DNA of 48,881 nt. Origin: Candidatus Zixiibacteriota bacterium. Its GTDB lineage: Bacteria > Zixibacteria > MSB-5A5 > RBG-16-43-9. Positions 6,342-48,581 of this stretch are shown here, in pieces; the first letter of the stretch is position 1; the number at the start of each line of letters is the position of its first letter. Where the stretch lies: positions 1-48,881 of the forward strand of contig JALHSU010000150.1 of the NCBI GenBank assembly GCA_022865345.1, written 5' to 3'. A program made the position numbers and the translations under genes. The notes beneath the pieces are model-generated. The model was not told where the DNA came from. It did not search any database and was given only the letters and a program-made list of their open reading frames with translations.

Positions 6342-9300
6342 CTACGCCGAACTCATCATCGCCTCTGCAAGCCTTTTTATATCGGTGAGGAGATCAAGCT
6401 TTTCTTTTTCGTTAAGGTAGCTTTGTTTTAACTCCGGGTCATCTATATTCTGGCTCAAGGTTTTTATGAGTTTGCCAGCCTTTTCATATTCCTTATAAGC
6501 GCTCTCCAGGTCATTATTCAAAAAGTAGAGCTTTCCCCTGAGATAATAAATCCTCCAGATAATTTCCAGTCGATTTAGCCCTGAAGCTTTCTCCAAAGCC
6601 GTTTCCGAGTATTTCAAAGCCTGATTTAAATTCCCCTGCCTGAATTCCTTCCTGAAAAGCATATAATAATATTCAGACTCAATTAAAGGCATGTTATTCT
6701 GCTCGATGATCTTCTTTGCGTTTTCCAGAGAGGTTTCTAGCATCTGGTTTTGTTCTGAGTCTAAATAAGCCCATGCAAAATCCAGGCTCAAGCTGAGCTT
6801 ATCCTCTAACGAGTTCAGCTCCTCAGCCAGGGAGATCGAGTTTTCAAGCAGCTTTAGAGCTTCGGCGGTCTTTTTGTGCTTTCTCAAAAGTATTCCCTTT
6901 AAACGACCAACTGCTATCTGGGTCCTTTTGTCATTTATTTGCTGTGAGATCTCCTGAGCTTCTTCCAAAAACCGATTCGCATCTTCTGCCCGGTTCAACA
7001 AAAAGAACAACCTTCCCAGGGAAAGCAGAACTGAAACTTTCAATTCCTTGTCCTTTATTTCGTCGGAAAGATCCAATGCCTCTTTCAATTGAGCCAATGC
7101 TCTCTGATAGGAACCAGTTTCCAGGTCAATATTAGCCAGACTCTTTAATAAATAGCCCACTGGCTGCTGGAAGCCTATGTCCCGGGCTATCTTCAACCCT
7201 TGACTGGCATAATCTATAGCTTTCTGATAATCCCCCAATTTAAAGTAACTCTCGCTTAGATTCACCAGGTTTATAGATATTTCCTTCTGGTTTTCGATCT
7301 CCTGATTCAGCTCAAGAGATTCCAGGTAAGATTTTACAGCATTTTGCAGGTTTCCCATAAGATAATAGACAAAACCGATATTGTTTAAACTTCTGGCTAT
7401 CTCCTCTTTGTTCCCCAGGTCCTTTTTTATCTGCAAGGATTCCGTGTGATATTCCAGTCCCTTTTTATACTGATGCTGCGAGACGTAGATCGAGCCCATA
7501 TTATTCAGGGTGGAGGCTATATCGTGCTTGTTATCCAAAGATCGATGAATTTCCAGAGCTTCTCCAAACGCCTCCAAAGCCTTTTGATATTGAGAATCTA
7601 TCCAGTAAATATTTCCTAAATTGTTCAGTGTGTGAGCGACCTCTTTATAATCTTTAAGTTTCTGAAAGGCCTCCTTTGCTTTAATCAAAAAGCTCAGTCC
7701 ATTCTGGTGGTCATGTTTTAACCGGAAAAGTTCACCCAAGTCCTTATAGGTTTCAGCAATTAATTCAAGGTTCCCTGAAAGCCCTACCGTTTTCAGGATA
7801 CCCTGGTAGTCTTTCAAAGCCAGGTTCAAATCGCCGATGTTTTTTAAGAACAGATCGCCCCTTTGCTTGAGGGCTTGAGCAGTTCTTTTCGATTTCTCCT
7901 TCTCGTCAGGAAGTTTTTCAGCGGCCGCCAAGGCTTTTTCCAGGTATTTTAGAGCCTGAGGAAAGTCCAGATCCTTCTGATTTTTGATTGCGCAGTTAAG
8001 GGAATAGTCATAAGCTTTAAAGTAATCATCGCTGAAGATGAAATGAGAAGCGATCTCCTCGGTCTCGATTTCTTCTCCGCTGGATTTTCGTCCCTCCAGA
8101 AAATATGCCAGTTTACGATGAAGAACTTCCTTCTCTCCTACGAAGTTCTTGTAGATTAAAGACTGGAGAGTCGGAGAAGAAAAGGCGTATACCAAGCTGG
8201 AAGTTTTCTTTTGAGCCTGGATAAGAATCCGGTCTTTCAGAAGGATGAAAAGAGACTCGAATATTTTGTCTTCTTCGTATCCTGTCAGGAATTTTATAGA
8301 GTTCAGGTCAAACTCCATACCGATAAGTGAAGCCAGATTGAGAAAATTCAAGACTTCCTCAGGGTATTTTTTTAGATTACCCAGGATGGTCTTCTCGATC
8401 GTGTCAGGGACATTGAGCCCTTTTAGAAGTTGTTCTTCAAATCTCAGGGAGCCTTTTTCAACATACAGGGCTTTCTTTTCAAACAGATACTTCAAAATTT
8501 CCAAAGCAAAAAGTGGAACCCCGGAGGAATTCCGGTAAATGAAATCAAGCAAAGTATCAGGGACGGTTTTCTGTCCTAACTTCTGAGACAGGTGCTTACC
8601 CAGGTTCTGCTTAGTAAGAGAGGGTAATCTCAGAAGGTGGAACTGATTTGAACCAGTCAGGCAGTTGATCAAAGATTTAAGCTTACCCTTTGGGTCTAAA
8701 TTGGCTTCTTGTAGGGTTCCGCATAAGAAGAGCTTAGACTTCTCCAGGATTTTAGTCAGTTCCTCCAACAAAACCAGACTTCCTTCTCCCATATGGTGAA
8801 GGTCCTCAAAAGCTAAAACAAAAGGATAAAGATTAGAAGCCTCAAGTATGAAAGAAGAGAGTTTTTCCAGTTCTGAACTGGCCTGACTTTCTTTTTCATA
8901 ACCTTCGTTTAAGAAAGATTTAAAAATCTCTTCGTATCTATCGCCAAATGAGGGATGAAGCTTTTGGAAAAAAGGCCAGATTCGGCTGAAAAGCTCTCTT
9001 ACGGGCTGGAGAGGGTGGGTCTCATCCTTGAGGCAATCTATCTGAACAAAAAGAATCCCTTCAAGCTGGGCTTCCCTTTTTAGGTATTTAAGAAGAGTGG
9101 ATTTACCTATTCCCATCTCTCCCTCGATCAGAAATAACCTTCCTCCGCGGGTAAGTGATTCATCCAGCTCTTTTTTCAGTGCCTGGTATTCTTTCTCCCG
9201 GTCGAGGATCTTACCACCGTAGATTCTGTTTAAATAGGAAGTCTTCTCAGATCCCCAGGCTGGGAAAGGAGTAATATCCGAAAGAGCCTCTTTTAGCTCT

Positions 9301-10073
9301 GATATATTCTGAAAGCGATCTTCAGGTTTTTTTTCAAGCAGTTTCAGAACCAGTGAGTCCAGACCCTGCGGCAATTCAGGTCTAAAGGCAGACGGTGGAG
9401 GGGCAGTTTTCTCCAGGTGGTCAGACCTCAAAATCAAAGGGTCTTCAGAGGAAAAAGGGACCCTTGAGGTCAGAAGCTCAAATAAGATTATCCCCAGGGA
9501 ATAAAGGTCTGTTCGTGAGTCAATTTCTCGACCGAGGAAGACCTCTGGAGCCATATATTCGAGTGTCCCTGAGGTACTGGACGAAACCTGAGAAAAGGTT
9601 CTGCGCGCCAATCCGAAGTCCAGAAGTTTTACGGAGAAAATATTGCGAGTCAACTTGAAATTGGATGGTTTTAGGTCGGCATGAACAAGATCCTGAGAGT
9701 GAAGGTAATCCAGTATGTCACAGATCTGCCAGACTACCTGATAAAACCTGTTTAAATCCTGCCGGGCAATTTCAGAAGTGAGCTCTTCTCCCTGAACCAT
9801 CTCCATAGTGTAGAAGGCGCTTTTGTCGATAGTATACCCGAAATCATAAACCTCCACTATCCCGGGGTGAGAGAGCTCTGAGGTCAGTCTGAACTCCTGC
9901 TTGAATCTCTCCAGGCTGTCTTCTTTCTGCTCTTCTTGGGCAGAATGGAGCTTCAGGGCAACAGTTTTTCCCTCCCATAGATCAGAGACTTCAAAGACTT
10001 TTCCCAGGCCGCCCTGGCCAATTTCCTTTATGATTTGATAGCGTGGAGTAATAAACTCTTTTTCGGTTGACAT
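6342..10073 (-). CDS. Ser/Thr protein kinase fused to an AAA/STAND-type ATPase and TPR repeats
   Basis: 1243 residues in three parts. Residues about 11-270 are a complete Hanks-type kinase: glycine loop GQGGLGKV, Lys K41, HADLKPSNF (D133, N138), DFG at 152-154 and APE near 175. Residues about 285-650 are an AAA_16-type ATPase with the P-loop GEMGIGKST (318-326) and a LAFEDLHHMG Walker-B-like segment. From about 700 to the end lie many tetratricopeptide repeats. This layout matches large signalling kinases of Myxococcus-like and other environmental bacteria, where TPRs bind partners and the ATPase acts as a MalT-like switch. There is no transmembrane segment, so it is cytoplasmic. No good ribosome binding site precedes the ATG. 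The histidine kinase gene ends 78 nt upstream, so they may be co-transcribed. Confidence 0.9.
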   Translation of the reverse strand: MSTEKEFITPRYQIIKEIGQGGLGKVFEVSDLWEGKTVALKLHSAQEEQKEDSLERFKQEFRLTSELSHPGIVEVYDFGYTIDKSAFYTMEMVQGEELTSEIARQDLNRFYQVVWQICDILDYLHSQDLVHADLKPSNFKLTRNIFSVKLLDFGLARRTFSQVSSSTSGTLEYMAPEVFLGREIDSRTDLYSLGIILFELLTSRVPFSSEDPLILRSDHLEKTAPPPSAFRPELPQGLDSLVLKLLEKKPEDRFQNISELKEALSDITPFPAWGSEKTSYLNRIYGGKILDREKEYQALKKELDESLTRGGRLFLIEGEMGIGKSTLLKYLKREAQLEGILFVQIDCLKDETHPLQPVRELFSRIWPFFQKLHPSFGDRYEEIFKSFLNEGYEKESQASSELEKLSSFILEASNLYPFVLAFEDLHHMGEGSLVLLEELTKILEKSKLFLCGTLQEANLDPKGKLKSLINCLTGSNQFHLLRLPSLTKQNLGKHLSQKLGQKTVPDTLLDFIYRNSSGVPLFALEILKYLFEKKALYVEKGSLRFEEQLLKGLNVPDTIEKTILGNLKKYPEEVLNFLNLASLIGMEFDLNSIKFLTGYEEDKIFESLFILLKDRILIQAQKKTSSLVYAFSSPTLQSLIYKNFVGEKEVLHRKLAYFLEGRKSSGEEIETEEIASHFIFSDDYFKAYDYSLNCAIKNQKDLDFPQALKYLEKALAAAEKLPDEKEKSKRTAQALKQRGDLFLKNIGDLNLALKDYQGILKTVGLSGNLELIAETYKDLGELFRLKHDHQNGLSFLIKAKEAFQKLKDYKEVAHTLNNLGNIYWIDSQYQKALEAFGEALEIHRSLDNKHDIASTLNNMGSIYVSQHQYKKGLEYHTESLQIKKDLGNKEEIARSLNNIGFVYYLMGNLQNAVKSYLESLELNQEIENQKEISINLVNLSESYFKLGDYQKAIDYASQGLKIARDIGFQQPVGYLLKSLANIDLETGSYQRALAQLKEALDLSDEIKDKELKVSVLLSLGRLFFLLNRAEDANRFLEEAQEISQQINDKRTQIAVGRLKGILLRKHKKTAEALKLLENSISLAEELNSLEDKLSLSLDFAWAYLDSEQNQMLETSLENAKKIIEQNNMPLIESEYYYMLFRKEFRQGNLNQALKYSETALEKASGLNRLEIIWRIYYLRGKLYFLNNDLESAYKEYEKAGKLIKTLSQNIDDPELKQSYLNEKEKLDLLTDIKRLAEAMMSSA

Positions 10074-10151: not shown

Positions 10152-11858
10152 TTAAGAAGAGCTTAAAGGAAAGCTGATCAAGAAAGAGGTTCCTTCCCCT
10201 AACTGGCTTTCCACCTTTATTTCCCCTTTATGGTTCTTTATGATCTTCTGACAGGTCACCAGCCCCAAGCCGTGACCTTCTTTTTTGGTGGTGAAATGCG
10301 GCTCAAAGATCTTACTTAAGTTCTCCGCCGGGATCCCCGTGCCGTTGTCCTCTATTTTCACCCAGATTTTTTTCTCTTCAGGCTTGTATTCACTGGAGAT
10401 CCAAATCTCCCCTTTTCCTTCTGGTTTTTCTTTTATGGATTCAGCCGCATTGTTCAGCAGGTTCAAGAAGACCTGCTGAATCTGGCCTGCATCTAATTCC
10501 AGCATAGGTAACTCCGGGTCAAAGTTGGGGTTGAACTTTATCTGGGAGAACTTGGTCTGCGGTTTTAAGGAGAAGAGCAGGTCCTCGATCAGGTTTTTCA
10601 GGTCATATTTCTCCACCTTAGTTTCCAGCCTGGAAAAATCCATCAGCCCGTCGGTGAAGCGCTTCATAGTGTTGACACTTTCCAGGATAGCCTTGGCATT
10701 GGAGGAGACTTTTTCGATCTCTCCTTTTTTCAAGTGTAAAGGTAAAAGCTCAGCATTGTTCAGGATTATGGTAAGGTAGTTATTTAACTCATGCCCTATG
10801 GAAGCTGACATCTCCCCGGCAGCCACCAGTTTCTCGGACTGGATAAGCCTTTTCTCTAAAAGCACCTTATCGGTGATGTCCTCCACTACCAGGATCAAGC
10901 CCATTATCCGATTTTCAACATTCTCCAAAGGACTGACCTTCAGGGATAAGACCAGTTCCTCCTCTTTGAACTTGTGGAAGGATTTTGCCTCCTCATAGGG
11001 TTGGCCAGTATAGAGTACCTGATAACAGATCTTCTTCCATTTGTTCTTCTCCTCTTCAGGCACTAAATCTAAAATGGAGACCTGGCTAAAGGAAAGGTCT
11101 GAGAGGTCCTCTTTCCAGCCGGTCCTCTTGAAGATCTCCTTAGAAGCTTGGTTGGCGATAGTAATCCAGAGATTATTATCAACCACGATCAAGCCAATCG
11201 GGGTACGGCTGACCACGTTTTCGTTATATATTTTCAGGGCTAAGAGGTTCTCGTATAATTTGGCATTCTCAATGGCAATGGCAGCCTGCCCGGCAAAAAG
11301 CTCAAAAACATAAAGGTCGCTCTGTAAAAATACATTGTTTTTAGAGGAGTTGTCCAGATACAAAATCCCGATGATCTTCTCCTTACTTTTCAGGGGAACG
11401 CACATTATCGATTTTAACTTAAGCTCCAGGATGCTTTTTTGCTTGGAGAACCTCTCGTCCTTTAAGGCGTCGCTGGTGTAAATCGATTCTCCAGTGGTAG
11501 CCACTTTATTGGCAATCGACATACTGATTCTGAAATCCTCTTTATTCAAGGATTCGTTGGTTATATTATGCGCGGTCTTGAACTGCAACTCTCCCTTATC
11601 ATCCAAGAGCATCAGGAAACCTCTTTCTGCTCTTAGCAAAGAGACAGCTTTTTTCATCACTGTCTGCAGGATATCATCCAGGACCAAAGTAGAGTTGATC
11701 GCCTGGCTGACCTCTAAGAGGGCTTCTAAATCGTCATTTTTAAATTTTCCAGTAGTGTTATTTTGTAAACGGGGGTGTGCGGTCTGGACTTTCTGAAAGA
11801 GGCTTTCCATTTCCTCCAAGGCAGTTTTGTCCTTTTTGTTAACCCCAGAGTTGTTCAT
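10152..11858 (-). CDS. Soluble sensor histidine kinase, GAF-PAS-HisKA-HATPase
   Basis: Order: GAF (about residues 55-200), PAS (about 215-330), HisKA with the phospho-acceptor H358 in IGHELNN, and a HATPase_c domain with N-box LNLLNNAAESI, G1 DNGTGIP and G2 GHGLGL (numbering from the 11864 ATG). No membrane segment is present, so it senses a cytosolic ligand or redox state. I prefer the ATG at 11858 over the one at 11864: the GGAGG directly abuts the first ATG but is 6 nt from the second. It carries no receiver of its own; the double-receiver protein at 39-806 is a possible partner, which is inference from shared location only. Confidence 0.92.
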   Translation of the reverse strand: MNNSGVNKKDKTALEEMESLFQKVQTAHPRLQNNTTGKFKNDDLEALLEVSQAINSTLVLDDILQTVMKKAVSLLRAERGFLMLLDDKGELQFKTAHNITNESLNKEDFRISMSIANKVATTGESIYTSDALKDERFSKQKSILELKLKSIMCVPLKSKEKIIGILYLDNSSKNNVFLQSDLYVFELFAGQAAIAIENAKLYENLLALKIYNENVVSRTPIGLIVVDNNLWITIANQASKEIFKRTGWKEDLSDLSFSQVSILDLVPEEEKNKWKKICYQVLYTGQPYEEAKSFHKFKEEELVLSLKVSPLENVENRIMGLILVVEDITDKVLLEKRLIQSEKLVAAGEMSASIGHELNNYLTIILNNAELLPLHLKKGEIEKVSSNAKAILESVNTMKRFTDGLMDFSRLETKVEKYDLKNLIEDLLFSLKPQTKFSQIKFNPNFDPELPMLELDAGQIQQVFLNLLNNAAESIKEKPEGKGEIWISSEYKPEEKKIWVKIEDNGTGIPAENLSKIFEPHFTTKKEGHGLGLVTCQKIIKNHKGEIKVESQLGEGTSFLISFPLSSS

Positions 11859-11997
11859 TCCCATCCTCCACAGGAGAAGAGTTTAAAAGATAAAGATTCA
11901 TTTCTTTTTATCGGCAGATTGGGCATTTTTATAATGGTAAAATCAGAGGAAAAAGGTTTTTAGAAGTGGGAAAGATACCTTTCAAAGCTTTTTTTTC

Positions 11998-12253: not shown

Positions 12254-12312
12254 CCTCACGGGGGTGAGGGCGCTACGGTTGCTTACCCACGTTGAGGGCA
12301 ATGTGGGCCTAC
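12254..12312 (-). repeat. Two REP-like singlets, the second overlapping the Nudix stop codon
   Basis: First unit: CCTCAC, loop GGGG, GTGAGG with CTAC at 12273-12276. Second unit: CCCAC (12286-12290) and GTGGG (12303-12307) with CTAC at 12309-12312. The CTA of that foot is, on the minus strand, the TAG stop of the Nudix gene. Confidence 0.5.
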
Positions 12313-12968
12313 CGGGCAGAGAAGTAATCTTTCAATGCCTGGCGATGGGACTGGAAGGCGATATTCTGGGGGATGCTTTTCGCAGGGAAAAACTTTACTT
12401 CTGAGGCGTCATCTCCTGGCGCAGGTTCTCCACTTGCGATTTCTCCCTGATAGACTATAAGGATTGCCCGGGTGCGCGGGTCGTCAGAACCTGAATAGAC
12501 TCTGAAAAGGCTGGTCAACTTTATTTCTAAATTGGTCTCCTCTTTTACCTCCCTTACTGCACAATGTTCTGGAGATTCACCATATTCGATAAATCCTGCT
12601 GGCAGGCACCAATCTCCTTTATAAGGGTTATATTTTCTTCTGACCAAAACGATTTGACCTTCTTTTTCGATGATAACCCCTGCGGCAGGGGCAGGATTGC
12701 GGTATAACACAAAACCGCATACCGGACAGACTTTTCTCAGGTTATGGTCAATCTTTTTCTTGATTAGCTCTGCGCTACAGCGCGGGCAATATCGAAAATC
12801 CTCTTCTTTTCTCAGATACTTGAAATAAAGATCGTTTTCCTGTTCTTCTTCTTTTTTAGAAAATTTCCCCTTTCTTTTATAAACCTTGCCGCTTTCCTTT
12901 ATCCGGGTGACAGGAGAGATAGACCAGGTTTTACGGGGCTTGGGTTTTTTGATTTTTATCTTATCCAT
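12309..12968 (-). CDS. Nudix hydrolase with zinc ribbon
   Basis: 219 residues. A basic N-terminal tail (about 1-55) precedes a four-cysteine zinc ribbon (CPRC and CPVC), then a Nudix domain whose box is GFIEYGESPEHCAVREVKEE followed by TNLEI. The REVKEE core with catalytic glutamates is intact; the usual Gly after EE is replaced by Asn. Related ribbon-Nudix proteins hydrolyse ADP-ribose, NADH or other nucleotide diphosphates, and the exact substrate cannot be read here. The lysine-rich tail is longer than usual and may be disordered. The stop codon sits in the foot of a REP-like palindrome, so the 3' end may have been shaped by that element. Confidence 0.88.
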   Translation of the reverse strand: MDKIKIKKPKPRKTWSISPVTRIKESGKVYKRKGKFSKKEEEQENDLYFKYLRKEEDFRYCPRCSAELIKKKIDHNLRKVCPVCGFVLYRNPAPAAGVIIEKEGQIVLVRRKYNPYKGDWCLPAGFIEYGESPEHCAVREVKEETNLEIKLTSLFRVYSGSDDPRTRAILIVYQGEIASGEPAPGDDASEVKFFPAKSIPQNIAFQSHRQALKDYFSAR

Positions 12969-13020: not shown

Positions 13021-15477
13021 TCATTCAATCCTATAAATTTCAGTACCAGTTCTTTCAGATATCTCTTTTAAAGCTTTGAAAGCAATCTTTCTAACCTGAC
13101 CATATATAGTGTATGCAGTATCATTTAATAATAGCTTTAGACTCTCCACCGCTTTTTTATCCCCAATCTGCCCCAGGGCATCTGCCGCACTCCCTCTAAC
13201 ATCACTCTCTTTAGCCTTCAATAGCTCAAGCAAAGGCATTACCGCCTGGTCTGACTTTATCTGCCCCAGGGCAACTGCCGCACTCCATCTAACATCACTC
13301 TCTTTAGCCTTCAATAGCTCAAGCAAAGGCATTACCGCCTGCTCTGATTTTATCTGCCCCAGGGCAACTGCCGCACTCCATCTAACATCACTCTCTTTAG
13401 CCTTCAATAGCTCAAGCAAAGGCGAAACTGCCTGGTCTGACTTTATCTGTCCCAGGGCATCTGCCGCACTCCCTCTAACATAACTCTCTTTAGCCTTCAA
13501 TAGCTCAAGCAAAGGCGAAACTGCCTGGTCTGACTTTATCTGCCCCAGGGCAACTGCCGCACTCCATCTAACATCACTCTCTTTATCCTTCAATAGCTCA
13601 AGCAAAGGCGAAACTGCCTGCTCTGACTTTATCTGCCCCAAGGCATCTGCCGCACTCCATCTAACATAACTCTCTTTAGCCTTGGTTTTCTCAATGAATT
13701 TTTGAATTATCTTCTGGTCTTTAACCTCCTGTAATACTTCTAAAGCAGTTTCCTTAGAGAGATTAAATTCGTTTATATTCCAGTAAATATTATATAGTTC
13801 ATTTGTGATCCGGGTTCTCATCTCAGTTGAGGCTGACGAACTTTCAGCTAAACATCTTCCAGCTAAAAAGAGATTAGTATGAAATATATCCTCTTTTTCA
13901 TTCAAGATTTTCTGTAAAAGATTGGTAGTATCTTTCATACCGCAATATAGTAAGGTTACCTCTATCCAGTATTTATCTCTCTTTTTTGTAACCAGAAAAT
14001 TCTCCAAATCATTATCCAGGATATATCTGGCAGTCAAGAACTCCTGAAAAGTTGGATGGGTAAAACCAAAATATCGCAGTTTAGTTTCAACCACAATTCC
14101 GCATCTGTCTTTGATGTCATCTAATAAATCACCTGCTTTGTCTTTGGGAACTGCTACTTTGGGCAGTTCATTCTCAAGTAATTCAATAAATTTCTCTCTT
14201 TTTTCCTCTCTCAGTCCATTCTGGTGTAAATAGAATGCCAGAGGCTGCAAAACAGTTCTTTTCTGGCGGGGCTGAAGCTCCGCAGCTATACCTTTAGCTA
14301 TATCCCAGTATCCAAGTAGAACATCACAGCACTCATCATAAAGCTCAACCCTTCTTTCCGGGAGGTGTCCTCTGTAACGATGGACTAAGATGATTATTGT
14401 GAGTAAAAGAGGATTGGCCGTCAGAAATTCTATTTTTGGATTCTCTTTTATGGCTTTCAAAAGTTTATCCGCTTCCCTCTCCGCCTCTTTTAAAGTATAT
14501 TCGCTTTCCTCTCCCCTTGCCTTAATCTCCACAATCTTGGTCCAGTATCTTATGAATTGTTCTATCTGTTCAGGTGTAAAATCGAGGATATGCAATTCAA
14601 AAAAGTCGTTATATAGATGAGCAGTTTCATAACCATATGGCCGGGAAGTAGCAATAAATATATTTTGAGGATAAACAGTGGTAAGTTCATCCACCCATTT
14701 AGCTACCTTAATTCTTTGTTCCGCTGAGGCTACCTCATCCAAACCATCCAGCAGAAGGACACACTTACCCTCATCTAATCTTTTCTTAAAAAAGTCTTCA
14801 GGGGGGGTATCAGGGCATTCTATATAGGTATTATAATTTTCTGTAAATTTTCTTACATCCAGAAATCCAGCTTTTGAAGTATCACGTAAATTTATAAAAA
14901 TTGGCAGGAGTTCATCTTCAAACCCTACCAATTCTTTAACATTCCTTCTGGCAAACTTTAGTGCGAGATAACTAAGTAGAGTGGTTTTTCCGCTACCAGG
15001 AGCACCGATTATTATAAACCTTTTCTGAGGTATATTAAAAAGGTCTTTCAACTCATAAGTTTTTTCTGTTTCATATTCTTCGCCTCTTCTTATAAATTCT
15101 TTTCTTTTAAATATCTCCTGCCCTAGAAACTCTGCTGCAATTCCTTCAATTTTAGATTCTATTGCAGAAACTGCCATTCTTTCTGCAGGCTTTTTAGTTT
15201 TTAAAGAGATAAAAACCTGTTCCAGTTCAATAGCTACAGGTGCATTTGTCTTTATACCCCTAACATTCAAAAACTTAAATCTATTAACCAGCCAATCTCT
15301 ATACTTCTGCTCGAAATTTTTCTCAGCGAACATCTTAATAATAATTTGCCAGATCCAATTAAATAATTTTCTGAATGGTTTCAATATTATCTCAACAATT
15401 ATCGCAAATATGAGCGCAAATAAGGCGGCTAGTATTATTTCTATCTTATGAATCTTTAAGAAATTACTCAAGTCCAT
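13021..15477 (-). CDS. Membrane-anchored NACHT (STAND) ATPase with C-terminal HEAT repeats
   Basis: 818 residues. A transmembrane helix lies at about 13-34, followed by a basic amphipathic stretch. The NACHT NTPase has P-loop GAPGSGKTT (158-166), Walker B LLLDGLDE (241-248), the ATSRPYGY segment and the FTHPTFQEFLTARYIL segment typical of bacterial NACHT winged-helix regions. HEAT/PBS-lyase-type repeats occupy 601-786: five 31-residue units that differ only at a few positions, then one diverged unit. Bacterial NACHT proteins include anti-phage sensors (bNACHT, Avs-related), and repeats usually form the ligand-sensing part. A defence role is inference. The gene starts 22 nt after the RsbU stop with no Shine-Dalgarno site, so it may be read from that operon or have its own weak promoter. 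Confidence 0.9.
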   Translation of the reverse strand: MDLSNFLKIHKIEIILAALFALIFAIIVEIILKPFRKLFNWIWQIIIKMFAEKNFEQKYRDWLVNRFKFLNVRGIKTNAPVAIELEQVFISLKTKKPAERMAVSAIESKIEGIAAEFLGQEIFKRKEFIRRGEEYETEKTYELKDLFNIPQKRFIIIGAPGSGKTTLLSYLALKFARRNVKELVGFEDELLPIFINLRDTSKAGFLDVRKFTENYNTYIECPDTPPEDFFKKRLDEGKCVLLLDGLDEVASAEQRIKVAKWVDELTTVYPQNIFIATSRPYGYETAHLYNDFFELHILDFTPEQIEQFIRYWTKIVEIKARGEESEYTLKEAEREADKLLKAIKENPKIEFLTANPLLLTIIILVHRYRGHLPERRVELYDECCDVLLGYWDIAKGIAAELQPRQKRTVLQPLAFYLHQNGLREEKREKFIELLENELPKVAVPKDKAGDLLDDIKDRCGIVVETKLRYFGFTHPTFQEFLTARYILDNDLENFLVTKKRDKYWIEVTLLYCGMKDTTNLLQKILNEKEDIFHTNLFLAGRCLAESSSASTEMRTRITNELYNIYWNINEFNLSKETALEVLQEVKDQKIIQKFIEKTKAKESYVRWSAADALGQIKSEQAVSPLLELLKDKESDVRWSAAVALGQIKSDQAVSPLLELLKAKESYVRGSAADALGQIKSDQAVSPLLELLKAKESDVRWSAAVALGQIKSEQAVMPLLELLKAKESDVRWSAAVALGQIKSDQAVMPLLELLKAKESDVRGSAADALGQIGDKKAVESLKLLLNDTAYTIYGQVRKIAFKALKEISERTGTEIYRIE
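13120..13677 (-). repeat. Tandem 93-bp coding repeats (HEAT units) in the NACHT gene
   Basis: Six in-frame 93-bp units. The first five (13213-13677) are almost identical in DNA as well as protein; the encoded unit begins KESxVRxSAAxALGQIKS and ends PLLELLK. Differences cluster at few sites: Y/D at unit position 4, W/G at 7, D/V at 11, E/D at 19, S/M at 23. The sixth (13120-13212) has drifted. Such identity implies recent duplication or gene conversion. Confidence 0.95.
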
Positions 15478-15499: not shown

Positions 15500-17716
15500 C
15501 TATAGCACCTTTAGTATCACAAGGGTGAAATCATCATACAAAGAGATGCCGTGCGCGAAGTTTTCGACTTCCCCGACGATAAGCTCCTTCAGCTCTTCGC
15601 TGGAAAGTTTCCTGTTTTCCAAAAGCAGCTCCAGGAGCCGGTCTTCTCCGAACATCTCCTGTTTCTCATTGAAATTCTCAGTTAGCCCATCCGAATAAAA
15701 GAAGACCAAGTCCTCAGGCTCAAATTGGACCTGCTCCATCTGGTAGGTTGCCTCAGGAAAGGGTCCTAAAATGAGCCCTCCTGTTTTGAGAAATTCCACT
15801 TTCTGGTTTTTGCGAATGACTATGGGATAGTTGTGCCCGGCATTGCAGTAGGAAAGTTTTCGGGTATGAGGATTGAACTCGCCGTAAAACATGGTGGCGA
15901 ACCTGCCGTCGGAGACCGAAGAGGAGATGAGCTGATTTATGTTGGACATAGTTTCAGAAGGCTCGAATTTGTTTTTCATCATCGCCCTTAAAGAGGCGTG
16001 TAAGAGAGAGACCATCAAGGCGGCAGGAACACCTTTGCCAGAAGCATCAGCTATGGCAACCCCCAGGGAGCCATCAGACCTCTCTAAAAAGTCATAATAA
16101 TCCCCTCCGACCTGATGGGCAGGCTGGGTATAAGCGGAAAGCTCAAAGGCTTTTCCCCTGGGAAAAGATTTAGGCAGAAGCCCGAGCTGGATTTGCTTTG
16201 CTACCAGAAGCTCCTCCTCTATCTTTTGTTTTTCTAAAGACTCCTGATAGAGACGGGCGTTTCTATAGGCGATCACGTACTGGTTAGCCAGGACCTTTAA
16301 AAGGGTTAAATCCTCATAGGTATATTTCAAACCGGTGATTTTTTTGGTTAAACCGAAAAAGCCGATAAACTCCTCAGAGCTATAAATCGGCACCATGAGA
16401 AAAACATCTGACTCAATCAGAGTTTTAAAAAGAGGAGTTTCAGCTCCAGGCTCCAGCTCATCTAAAAAAAAAGGCCGGTCCCTGGATTTGAGCTGTTCTA
16501 TCAGACGGTCATCTTCGGGAAAGAAAAAGTCTTTATGCTCGGATAAAAGTGAAAATCTTTTATTTTTCGTCTCGCACAGGCAGAGGTAAACCTCCTCCAC
16601 TAACATCTCCTTTTTCAAGGAGTCAAAGATCGTGCGGTTAAGCTCATCCAGATTCAAAATGGAGATTATCTTACGGCTGAACATCTCCATCATTATGCGG
16701 TAATCAGCCTTGTCTTTCATCAACAGCTTCTTTACCAACTCATCCATCCATCCCATAATCGGCTGGAAAAGGAATATAGCCAGTATCAGGTAACCTATCT
16801 CTAAGATGGGGACCCTGCGGCCTAAAAGGCTCTGCATCAGATTACTCAACTGAGCAATCAAAAGAAAATAGATTCCTAAAAGAAGGGCCGAGGTCAGGGA
16901 ATAGACCAGACTCTGCCTTACCAGGGTCCTGATATCCAGAAAGCGGTAGCGGATGATTGCCCAAGCAATAGAACCTGCCCCGATCAGAAGAGCCGCAATG
17001 GTCAGTGCATATCCCAGTGTGTCAGGGATCCTCAAATTAGTCAGGGCAGGCAAGATAAAGGCGACCGCATAAAGTCCAGCAGCAGATCTAATGCCCCAGG
17101 TAACCAGTTGAGCCTGAGTTTTCAAGCGGCTCTGGGTCAGTTTTCTGGTTCCCCGGTAAAGGAAGAGAACCGCCAGGAAAAGATAGGTTAAGTTTATGAT
17201 CGAAAAAAACTGTAGATGAAACCTGTAGATTACCTCCACCGAAAGAGAAAGGAATTTGAGAACGAAAGTTACCGGTTGGAGAATAAAACCTCCCAGTCCG
17301 GATACATTTTCCAGGGAGGAGAAATTGATGAGATTGCGTGGCTGGTACAGGAACAAGACCAGAAGGAGACGAAAGATGTGAGGCGTGAAAATCAGTATCT
17401 TGACCCGGGGATGTTTTTTCAAAAAAGGATTTTCCGCTGGAAAAATCAAGGAGAAAAGCAGAAGCTGGGGGAAGAAAAGCTCCCACAAGAAAAAGATATT
17501 GGTGTAGAAAACCGAAGTCGTAGATGCCAGCCCGCCAGCTTTAAGAATGGTTCCAAAGGCGGCAAAAACTGGGCCTGAGCCGGCAAAGAAAAGCATCAGG
17601 CTGGTTATCCGGTTCAGCCTTCCCCGGTAATCCTCGGACAAGATAGTAATACCCAGGAAAAAGAGGACTATGCCGCAGACCAGATAGACTGAAGCTACTA
17701 AAGTAAGGAGAATCAC
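15500..17716 (-). CDS. RsbU-like PP2C phosphatase with membrane domain and GAF
   Basis: 738 residues from a GTG start at 17716. Residues 1-320 hold about nine to ten hydrophobic segments, resembling 7TM-type sensor regions of membrane kinases. A GAF-like domain follows (about 340-490), then a SpoIIE/RsbU PP2C domain (about 505-735) with QIQLGLLP, the metal-site GGDYYD (537-542), ADASGKG (556-562) and the late DDFTLVIL. In known systems this class dephosphorylates the anti-anti-sigma factor, here probably the RsbV-like protein at 18237-18575. It sits 8 nt after the RsbW-like gene, so V, W and U form one operon. The signal detected by the membrane/GAF part is unknown. Confidence 0.9.
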   Translation of the reverse strand: MILLTLVASVYLVCGIVLFFLGITILSEDYRGRLNRITSLMLFFAGSGPVFAAFGTILKAGGLASTTSVFYTNIFFLWELFFPQLLLFSLIFPAENPFLKKHPRVKILIFTPHIFRLLLVLFLYQPRNLINFSSLENVSGLGGFILQPVTFVLKFLSLSVEVIYRFHLQFFSIINLTYLFLAVLFLYRGTRKLTQSRLKTQAQLVTWGIRSAAGLYAVAFILPALTNLRIPDTLGYALTIAALLIGAGSIAWAIIRYRFLDIRTLVRQSLVYSLTSALLLGIYFLLIAQLSNLMQSLLGRRVPILEIGYLILAIFLFQPIMGWMDELVKKLLMKDKADYRIMMEMFSRKIISILNLDELNRTIFDSLKKEMLVEEVYLCLCETKNKRFSLLSEHKDFFFPEDDRLIEQLKSRDRPFFLDELEPGAETPLFKTLIESDVFLMVPIYSSEEFIGFFGLTKKITGLKYTYEDLTLLKVLANQYVIAYRNARLYQESLEKQKIEEELLVAKQIQLGLLPKSFPRGKAFELSAYTQPAHQVGGDYYDFLERSDGSLGVAIADASGKGVPAALMVSLLHASLRAMMKNKFEPSETMSNINQLISSSVSDGRFATMFYGEFNPHTRKLSYCNAGHNYPIVIRKNQKVEFLKTGGLILGPFPEATYQMEQVQFEPEDLVFFYSDGLTENFNEKQEMFGEDRLLELLLENRKLSSEELKELIVGEVENFAHGISLYDDFTLVILKVL

Positions 17717-17724
17717 TTTATATC

Positions 17725-18159
17725 TTATTCCTTATTCTTCAAATACTTGGTGAGACGGACAATGGTTCCGCCTTCTGGCTTGAAGATGAAATCGACTTTG
17801 TCCATCAGAGACCGGACTATGAAAATCCCCCTTCCAACTTCCTTGAGCAGGTTTTCTTCGGTAATAGGGCAGGGGAGAGAGTTAAGGTCAAACCCTTTCC
17901 CCTCGTCCTCGACCTCTATGCAGATACAGGACTTATCGCAAATGAGCCGGAGGGTGACTTTTTTCTCAGGGTCTTTTTTATTTCCGTGCACTATGGCGTT
18001 ATTGACCGCCTCGGTCACTGAAATCGCCACGTCGGCCAGCTGGTTTTTGTCCAGTTTTAATTTTCTTAATTTACCCTCCATGAAACTATCCACTTTGGCT
18101 AAGTAAAGCTGGGAGCTGGGGATTATAATCTGGTTTTTTCTGCGGATCACCTTAGTCAT
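17725..18159 (-). CDS. Anti-sigma factor-type Ser kinase (RsbW/SpoIIAB family)
   Basis: 144 residues, usual for the family. A GHKL ATPase fold is seen from the N-box EAVNNAIVHGNKK (50-62) and the G1 box DEGKGFD (85-91), with EVGRGIFIVRSLMD as the G2 region. These kinases phosphorylate a Ser on the STAS partner and bind a sigma factor or another target when the partner is phosphorylated. The STAS gene precedes it and the phosphatase follows, so the switch is complete, but there is no sigma factor gene beside it. A hairpin with T-run lies in the 77-nt gap to the STAS gene and may lower its expression relative to the STAS protein. Confidence 0.9.
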   Translation of the reverse strand: MTKVIRRKNQIIIPSSQLYLAKVDSFMEGKLRKLKLDKNQLADVAISVTEAVNNAIVHGNKKDPEKKVTLRLICDKSCICIEVEDEGKGFDLNSLPCPITEENLLKEVGRGIFIVRSLMDKVDFIFKPEGGTIVRLTKYLKNKE

Positions 18160-18236: not shown

Positions 18237-18575
18237 TTAATTGAAGCTTCCCACTGCCTGATCAACTGATTCAAAGGTCTCAAACACGGTTATGAGCTTG
18301 GTGATGGTCAAAAGGCTCTGGATTTTTTCGGTCACGTTAGCCAGTTTAAGCTCTCCGCCATTATTCCGCATGGTGGTCAGTCCGGAGATCAATATGCCCA
18401 GCCCAGTGCTGTTCATCCAATCTACTTTAGCCAGGTCGATTACAACCTTCTTTTTTCCCTGATTTATGAGCTCGTGCAGCTTGTCGTGCAAAAGGGTTGC
18501 ATCCGGGCCTCCCATGATTTTGCCTTTGGGTTCTAAAATCACTATCCCTTTATCTTCACGCGTAGTCAATTTCAT
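18237..18575 (-). CDS. Anti-anti-sigma factor, STAS domain (RsbV/SpoIIAA family)
   Basis: 112 residues forming one STAS domain. The regulatory serine is S56 in VDWMNSTGLG, the position phosphorylated by RsbW-type kinases. AGGAGGAGAAG precedes the ATG, a strong ribosome binding site compared with the weak ones of the kinase and phosphatase genes, again favouring an excess of this protein. Unphosphorylated, it would sequester the kinase partner. The gap to the upstream small exported protein is 55 nt. Confidence 0.92.
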   Translation of the reverse strand: MKLTTREDKGIVILEPKGKIMGGPDATLLHDKLHELINQGKKKVVIDLAKVDWMNSTGLGILISGLTTMRNNGGELKLANVTEKIQSLLTITKLITVFETFESVDQAVGSFN

Positions 18576-19087: not shown

Positions 19088-19115
19088 ATTATAGAAATTA
19101 TCGAAGGTTTGTCAA
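19088..19115 (-). promoter_or_regulatory. Sigma-70-type promoter of the partner-switching operon
   Basis: Minus strand: TTGACA (19110-19115), 16-nt spacer, perfect TATAAT (19088-19093). The first 14 nt, TTGACAAACCTTCG, are identical to the start of the rex promoter. Confidence 0.8.
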
Positions 19116-47390: not shown

Positions 47391-48581
47391 TTAAAATGGA
47401 AGATCGTAACTACCTATTTTCACAGGCATCCAGGGATACATATCAGTATCAGAGATGAAATGACTAGGTACATAACCTAAACTGCCCCAGTACTCGGGTG
47501 AATCATTTTCTTTGACAGGAGTTGAAAGACTACCTATGTCCATAGACCAGAATGCATCCTTACCAGAACCTCGCAATTTATTTAATATCACTACAGCATC
47601 AACTATTCTACCACTAGCTAGATTATCTTGCGTTATCATCTCCTGCTCTTTTGAGATGAGTAATAGAAGCTCCTCTAGAGCCTTTTTAATCTGTGCGTAC
47701 TCTTTTGACAACACCTCGTGGTTAAAAACCATTGATATTCTCTTACTAAATTTCACATTCCTTTTTTCATCCATACGAGTATAGGGCACCTCTTCAGAAA
47801 TGTAAGTTAGGAGATTACATAAAACTGGATATTGCTCTACAATTGCTGATGTCTTAATATTTAAAATTCTATAACGAATGAGTGCTTCGGTATTTGACAT
47901 CTGTTGTTTCAATAATGGACAATCGTAAGCCAAAGTTATTCTTATCCAATTCTCGTCATTACTTTGATTAAAAGATAGAGTGCAGTTTTCAGTCCCAAGA
48001 GTCCTTAACTCTTTGTACCAATTTTCATCCATATTAGTAGGGATAATTTTGTTACAAGTCATCATTTCAAATAGACATTTTTCTACCTCCGCCAAGACAT
48101 GTTTAGCGTTTTGCTTTATGACATCAACATCGTCCTCCTTGATTGGCCTGAAGTGAGCAAGAGAATTTCGAATAGCACCTATTTCATCTAATTTATTTTT
48201 AATAATCTCTTTGCTACCTAGGAAATATTTCCTGAAATATTTCCAATATGATTCAGAGGTTATCAAGCGTATAAGTTCACCACTTGTTAGATGTAGCATG
48301 GGACAGTTAATGGCATAACCAAGATATCCATAGGTGCTGGCCTGTGCCATCCTTTTTTTTGCAATAGATTTAATCGTGCTTTCTTCTGAATCATCACTTG
48401 TAATGTTTAGATCTAGCCATTTTTCGTGAAATTCATTTTTTAACACAGCATATACAAAGACACGAAGAGCATTTTCCACACGAAATAAGATTGTCAAAGT
48501 CTCATAATAATATAAAGGTAACCATTCTCCAGGTATGTCAATATTACGCCCTTCTTTTTCAACTGCTTTTTTCCAATCCAT
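47391..48581 (-). CDS. HEPN-domain protein (Swt1-type), possible RNase
   Basis: 396 residues. The N-terminal half (about 20-175) is helical, with FRVENALRVFVYAVL and GAIRNSLAHFRPIKEDD; RNSLAH is the Rx4H motif that forms the active site of HEPN ribonucleases. The layout is like Swt1-family HEPN proteins. The C-terminal half (about 195-396) is not recognised. HEPN proteins often act in toxin-antitoxin, abortive infection or RNA decay. No antitoxin gene (for example MNT nucleotidyltransferase) is adjacent inside the window. AAGGAG lies 8 nt before the ATG. Codon use looks more AT-rich than the polysaccharide genes, which may point to transfer. Confidence 0.6.
   Translation of the reverse strand: MDWKKAVEKEGRNIDIPGEWLPLYYYETLTILFRVENALRVFVYAVLKNEFHEKWLDLNITSDDSEESTIKSIAKKRMAQASTYGYLGYAINCPMLHLTSGELIRLITSESYWKYFRKYFLGSKEIIKNKLDEIGAIRNSLAHFRPIKEDDVDVIKQNAKHVLAEVEKCLFEMMTCNKIIPTNMDENWYKELRTLGTENCTLSFNQSNDENWIRITLAYDCPLLKQQMSNTEALIRYRILNIKTSAIVEQYPVLCNLLTYISEEVPYTRMDEKRNVKFSKRISMVFNHEVLSKEYAQIKKALEELLLLISKEQEMITQDNLASGRIVDAVVILNKLRGSGKDAFWSMDIGSLSTPVKENDSPEYWGSLGYVPSHFISDTDMYPWMPVKIGSYDLPF

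Follow-up and report, generated by a model that had tools for sequence, protein, structure and literature searches.

Gene cluster and domain architecture

An 818-aa protein with a NACHT domain is encoded on the minus strand of the window, by which we mean the whole analysed stretch of DNA (48,881 nucleotides). Its gene is the fourth in a same-strand run of rsbV, rsbW, rsbU, the NACHT gene, nudix, a histidine kinase gene and a Ser/Thr kinase-AAA-TPR gene. The genes of this run and the domains of the NACHT protein are as follows.

18237-18575 (-), rsbV-like STAS anti-anti-sigma factor
17725-18159 (-), rsbW-like anti-sigma kinase (HATPase_c_2)
15500-17716 (-), rsbU-like SpoIIE/PP2C phosphatase with a membrane N-terminus (PF07228, E 2e-53), 22 bp upstream of the NACHT gene
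13021-15477 (-), coding sequence (exact ORF) of the 818-aa STAND protein with transmembrane (TM), NACHT and HEAT (PBS/alphaRep-type) parts
15382-15438 (-), single N-terminal TM helix, aa 14-32 (hydropathy maximum 3.17)
14542-15018 (-), NACHT domain, aa 154-312 (PF05729, E 4.2e-14)
14983-15006 (-), Walker A, GAPGSGKT, aa 158-165, intact motif
14731-14757 (-), Walker B, LLLDGLDEV, aa 241-249, intact motif
12309-12968 (-), zinc-ribbon NUDIX hydrolase (PF00293, PF14803), 52 bp downstream of the NACHT gene
10152-11864 (-), GAF-PAS sensor histidine kinase, in the same order in relatives
6342-10073 (-), Ser/Thr kinase-AAA-TPR protein, in the same order in genomes G001 and G003

Both features by which STAND proteins are recognized were found in the 818-aa protein, namely a NACHT domain with intact Walker A and Walker B motifs (PF05729, 53.2 bits against the Pfam cut-off of 26.7) and a C-terminal superstructure-forming repeat sensor, the latter indicated by Pfam matches of the array region to HEAT_2/HEAT_PBS, by a solenoid model and by matches to alphaRep proteins. 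The TM-anchored NACHT-HEAT architecture described in the earlier note was thereby confirmed. The N-terminus consists of the TM anchor and a short linker, and Pfam revealed no nuclease, TIR, protease or other known effector in it; of the membrane-linked effector end proposed in the same note, the anchor stands, and no effector is visible besides it.

The gene order of the cluster is conserved across the taxonomic order. In G008 and G009, which belong to the same order, rsbU directly adjoins nudix and the site is empty, so that the simplest account has the family's ancestor acquire the NACHT gene within a cluster that already existed. The rsbU-nudix gap appears to have taken up genes at least twice, because in G004 it holds an unrelated, membrane-like ORF of 330 aa, which runs in the opposite direction (L053 3827-4819 (+)) and for which no Pfam family was found.

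The spacings of 22 and 52 bp, the shared strand, the conserved cluster order and the lack of a convincing terminator between rsbU, the NACHT gene and nudix would suit a stress-signalling STAND protein of the Rsb partner-switching cluster, which would sense an internal cue and act on RsbU or the downstream kinases. We regard this role as possible but rather unlikely, since absence of the NACHT gene from the G008 and G009 clusters indicates that the Rsb module works without it, co-transcription is deduced from spacing only, distant homologues sit in unrelated contexts, and our literature search found no paper tying a STAND NACHT protein to Rsb.

A perfect sigma-70 consensus promoter (TTGACA-16-TATAAT; window 19088-19115 (-)) is located upstream of a small secreted-protein gene and rsbV, and could start the cluster transcript. 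At the other end of the cluster, the kinase domain of the Ser/Thr kinase-AAA-TPR protein strongly matched the PADLOC PD-T4-6 models (E 1e-70); its orthologues keep their place in G001 and G003, suggesting that it is probably a signalling kinase and not a defence gene.

The 93-bp HEAT array

One strong tandem array was detected by TRF in the window. It runs from 13166 to 13683 with a period of 93 bp, 5.6 copies, 94% matches and a score of 889, and was divided into the following units.

13591-13683 (-), HEAT unit 1, aa 599-629
13498-13590 (-), HEAT unit 2, aa 630-660
13405-13497 (-), HEAT unit 3, aa 661-691
13312-13404 (-), HEAT unit 4, aa 692-722
13219-13311 (-), HEAT unit 5, aa 723-753
13126-13218 (-), hybrid unit 6, aa 754-784, with the first ~18 codons array-like and the rest (GDKKAVESLKLLL) like the single unit of the G003 orthologue

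Any two of the five full 31-residue units (aa 599-753; 13219-13683) show 2-10 differences in 93 bases, corresponding to 89-98% DNA identity, and their pairwise amino acid identity is 84-97%. The near-identity of five 93-bp repeats noticed earlier is therefore real, and the recurrent residue changes reported at unit positions 4, 7, 11, 19, and 23 were found at the same sites, which are positions 6, 9, 13, 21, and 25 in our phase (a shift of 2); position 2 carries one more change, a singleton. In fungal NLRs, high internal conservation has been defined as more than 85% over 100 aa (PMC4986451), a value exceeded by the five units with a mean of about 90% amino acid identity over 155 aa. The top adjacent-unit DNA identity at the 93-bp period was 0.98 here, whereas it was 0.43-0.82 in related HEAT and NACHT-HEAT proteins, indicating that HEAT arrays do not consist of near-identical units by default. 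Likewise, 369 bases lay over the 85% line here and none in any related HEAT or NACHT-HEAT protein scanned. Milder cases of alike HEAT units exist, as a cyanobacterial plasmid locus of Scytonema NIES-4073, with a gene annotated as having a NACHT domain, contains a 99-bp HEAT array at 78%.

The best match of the HEAT part was to alphaRep binders, both by sequence (phmmer, E 7.6e-81 to 9sah) and by fold (Foldseek, E 3.5e-13 to 6bzx). In the AlphaFold2 model, which had a pLDDT of ~97 over the array, helices were placed at unit positions 5-18 and 21-30. The array shares its 31-residue unit, consensus VRxxAAxALGxI ... AVxPL and fold with alphaRep and natural PBS-lyase HEAT-like repeats (PMC3754942; PDB 3ltj, 4jw2, 9sah); it differs in that it occurs in nature, at the C-terminus of a STAND protein, whereas the alphaRep binders are artificial.

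The variable positions of alphaRep are 18, 19, 22, 23, 26, and 30 (PMC3754942), which by our own consensus alignment map to unit positions 5, 6, 9, 10, 13, and 17, all on the concave binding face. Three of the five recurrent positions of the array (6, 9, and 13, i.e. alphaRep 19, 22, and 26) are concave and exposed, as the earlier note had expected of a recognition surface, whereas the remaining two, 21 and 25, belong to the other helix; position 2 is in a loop, and positions 2, 21, and 25 are fixed in alphaRep. None of the variable positions is buried; burial would have spoken against the earlier note. The overlap between variable and concave positions was assessed over all 31 positions (p = 0.04-0.07) and over the exposed ones (p = 0.39). 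As it is not significant among exposed positions, a gathering of variable positions on the modelled binding face is not demonstrated.

Copy number, age and selection of the units

The sole close orthologue was found in G003, which belongs to the same family and another genus. It is syntenic and 74% identical ahead of the repeats, and the nudix, histidine kinase and Ser/Thr kinase genes come after it as they do in the window; as a contig-end fragment, it spans query residues 346 to the end. This orthologue contains exactly one unit, compared with 5-6 in the window gene, although the G003 assembly is fragmented and a contig of it starts inside the same gene, so that the count of one may reflect assembly collapse, and the count in the window may likewise be compressed. 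In these assemblies the repeat number differs between the two genera; a comparison of this kind had been proposed in the earlier note. The first half of the G003 unit showed 81-83% DNA identity to all window units, whereas its second half showed 82% to hybrid unit 6 and 33-36% to the other units. The direction of the change, probably expansion in the window lineage and not contraction in G003, is read from this one orthologue.

A search with the array DNA found nothing in the congeners G001 and G002, whose assemblies both lack the locus: the G001 contig starts inside nudix, and G002 has no nudix, rsbU orthologue or histidine kinase. Assemblies break at or near the locus in several places (start of G001:C86, end of G003:C195, start of G003:C102), which may reflect strain variation.

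The mean pS among the five units was 0.113. Between the window genome (G000) and G001, the neighbouring genes gave a pS of 0.386 for the histidine kinase and 0.267 for the Ser/Thr kinase; against G003, pS of the compared genes was near saturation. All units accordingly share an ancestor that postdates the divergence from the nearest congener with a sequenced genome. To judge from these divergences, either the array would have been amplified that recently, or exchange would keep resetting its units. Furthermore, 6 of the 21 informative site pairs among the units violated the four-gamete condition. Shuffling of units or unequal exchange in register would leave this trace, and so would tandem duplications whose breakpoints fell within a unit. 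The low pS and the mosaic units bear out the recent repeat turnover that the earlier note implied. Recent tandem amplification with some unit shuffling would fit these sequences at least as well as long-term homogenisation, and the word "homogenised" in the title of that note is an interpretation and not an observation. Homogenisation with another gene was rejected, because C225, the closest other HEAT gene in the genome, showed 48% protein identity and no DNA match.

Five synonymous and seven nonsynonymous sites vary among the units, with a mean pN/pS of about 0.47. This ratio is above the values of the neighbouring genes, yet below 1, and relaxed constraint suffices to explain it; with so few sites, positive selection at interface positions was not detected. 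For the C-terminal half of the NACHT gene compared with G003, pN was 0.134, within the range of its neighbours (rsbU 0.151, nudix 0.129, histidine kinase 0.116), and gene-wide fast evolution was rejected on this ground. The agreement with the rate of the neighbours is also what would be expected of a signalling component of the cluster, and location and evolution rate together are as compatible with signalling as with defence. The fast-evolving recognition array of the earlier note is not seen in these values. The evidence supports a membrane-tethered STAND protein whose HEAT array was amplified recently; a homogenised, fast-evolving recognition array exceeds the data.

It is also conceivable that strand slippage or unequal exchange amplified a tolerant modular solenoid in a neutral or near-neutral manner, with recognition unchanged. 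Solenoids accept whole-unit insertions, the exact 93-bp periodicity preserves the frame, and the replacements avoid the core, with pN/pS below 1. On the other hand, the array exceeds the one-unit orthologue by about 465 bp with the frame intact and no broken unit, and several replacements at exposed positions are radical (Y/D, W/G, D/V, S/M); on balance we see such drift in unit number as possible, though on the improbable side.

Relatives, defence systems and proposed function

Among 132 genomes, the class- and phylum-level search found relatives of the NACHT region only in G003, G066, and G015. The G066 protein, from the same class, is 35% identical over NACHT and likewise has a TM segment before NACHT and an alphaRep-type HEAT tail. 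It differs in a longer HEAT tail of divergent units (mean DNA identity 0.53), in a signal peptide-like extra N-terminus, and in its gene neighbours; its gene adjoins what we take, from the sequence, to be an HdrA-like oxidoreductase gene. A scan of genome contigs yielded one distant TIR-NACHT-FGE locus only, the scan of viral contigs found no homologue, and phage records gave three matches, all with 25% identity or less. Distant relatives (L063 7068-10343; L072) presumably end in FGE/C-type-lectin-like domains instead of HEAT, judging from their sequences, suggesting that the sensor arm has been swapped between homologues. The one of them that comes from Chloroflexi starts with what we presume to be a TIR-like domain.

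The earlier note took the protein for an antiphage NLR-like sensor, in which recombination would keep the repeats alike and selection would diversify recognition positions. Its NACHT plus HEAT architecture is common to defence STANDs, and it shares the central NACHT module and the tripartite layout with the bacterial antiphage NACHT proteins (bNACHT, DS8, EruA). Internal conservation above the fungal NLR threshold (PMC4986451), mosaic units, a repeat number of 1 versus 5-6 and variation at three concave positions would also fit. However, a pN/pS of about 0.47 from seven nonsynonymous and five synonymous sites is no different from neutral or constrained evolution, the concave overlap among exposed positions is not significant (p = 0.39), and no second array for exchange was found in the genome. 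The antiphage claim found no local support either: the NCBIfam scores were far below the antiphage NACHT cut-offs (DS8, 36.3 against 790; EruA, 35.4 against 1000), PADLOC gave only HEAT and P-loop similarities for the NACHT gene, and no SNaCT, NCH1 or PD-(D/E)XK domain was recognised. The gene lies in an Rsb-type signalling cluster, whose Rsb, nudix and kinase genes are kept in relatives, and not in a defence island or mobile element; a distant HEPN gene is the only defence-type gene around it. We therefore judge an antiphage sensor unlikely.

Fungal NLRs (het-d/het-e/hnwd and the ANK, TPR, and HEAT NLRs of P. anserina; PMC1805685, PMC4986451) resemble the window gene in combining a NACHT STAND core with alike C-terminal repeats, in variable positions that are partly concave and, provided that the G003 assembly is correct, in repeat-number variation. 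They differ in that here one bacterial gene has no gene family to exchange with, positive selection is not detectable, and the N-terminus is a TM helix instead of a HET, sesB or prion-forming domain. In Podospora, concerted evolution was proved by the clustering of units by species, and recent duplication was rejected (PMC1805685), whereas here the two are inseparable, as the G003 orthologue has one unit. A bacterial counterpart of the fungal incompatibility receptors, namely an NLR-like receptor in an Rsb-type operon whose fast-remodelled HEAT array, with unit shuffling, would feed a membrane-linked stress or defence programme, appears distinctly unlikely.

We favour, with slightly better than even confidence, a membrane-tethered STAND (NACHT) switch with a recently lengthened alphaRep-like HEAT arm for ligand binding, the gene having been inserted in the Rsb cluster. 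The gene would have entered the rsbV-rsbW-rsbU-nudix cluster before the two genera split and been inherited with it since. In the window lineage, inter-unit recombination would then have raised the number of 93-bp units from about one to five and a half, with some variants shuffled. One N-terminal helix would tether the switch to the inner membrane. By analogy with the family, a partner would bind the HEAT solenoid, whereupon the NACHT ATPase would exchange nucleotide and oligomerise; the output may come from clustering of TM helices at the membrane or from contact with a membrane partner.

Should the array serve as a recognition surface, the locus provides a dated bacterial case of change in NLR sensor length inside one family, in which the ancestral insertion site, the one-unit orthologue and the expanded copy can be compared together. 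Nature has here supplied a one-unit and a six-unit protein, whose comparison could show what repeat number does. If only neutral amplification has occurred, the array is a warning against taking identical repeats for an arms race. The place inside the rsbV-rsbW-rsbU cluster also suggests that STAND switches and partner-switching regulation may be linked, which can be tested.

Two further genes were observed. At the window edge, 47391-48581 (-) encodes a 396-aa protein of possible abortive-infection type, in which a Swt1-like HEPN domain was recognised (PF18731, E 9e-8) and which weakly matched PADLOC PDC-M34B. The window genome also contains a second NACHT-related gene (G000:C109:1-5989, L074), in which an in-frame TAG separates an N-terminal piece from NACHT; from its sequence we take the N-terminal piece to be nuclease-like, and the gene is possibly a broken defence STAND gene.
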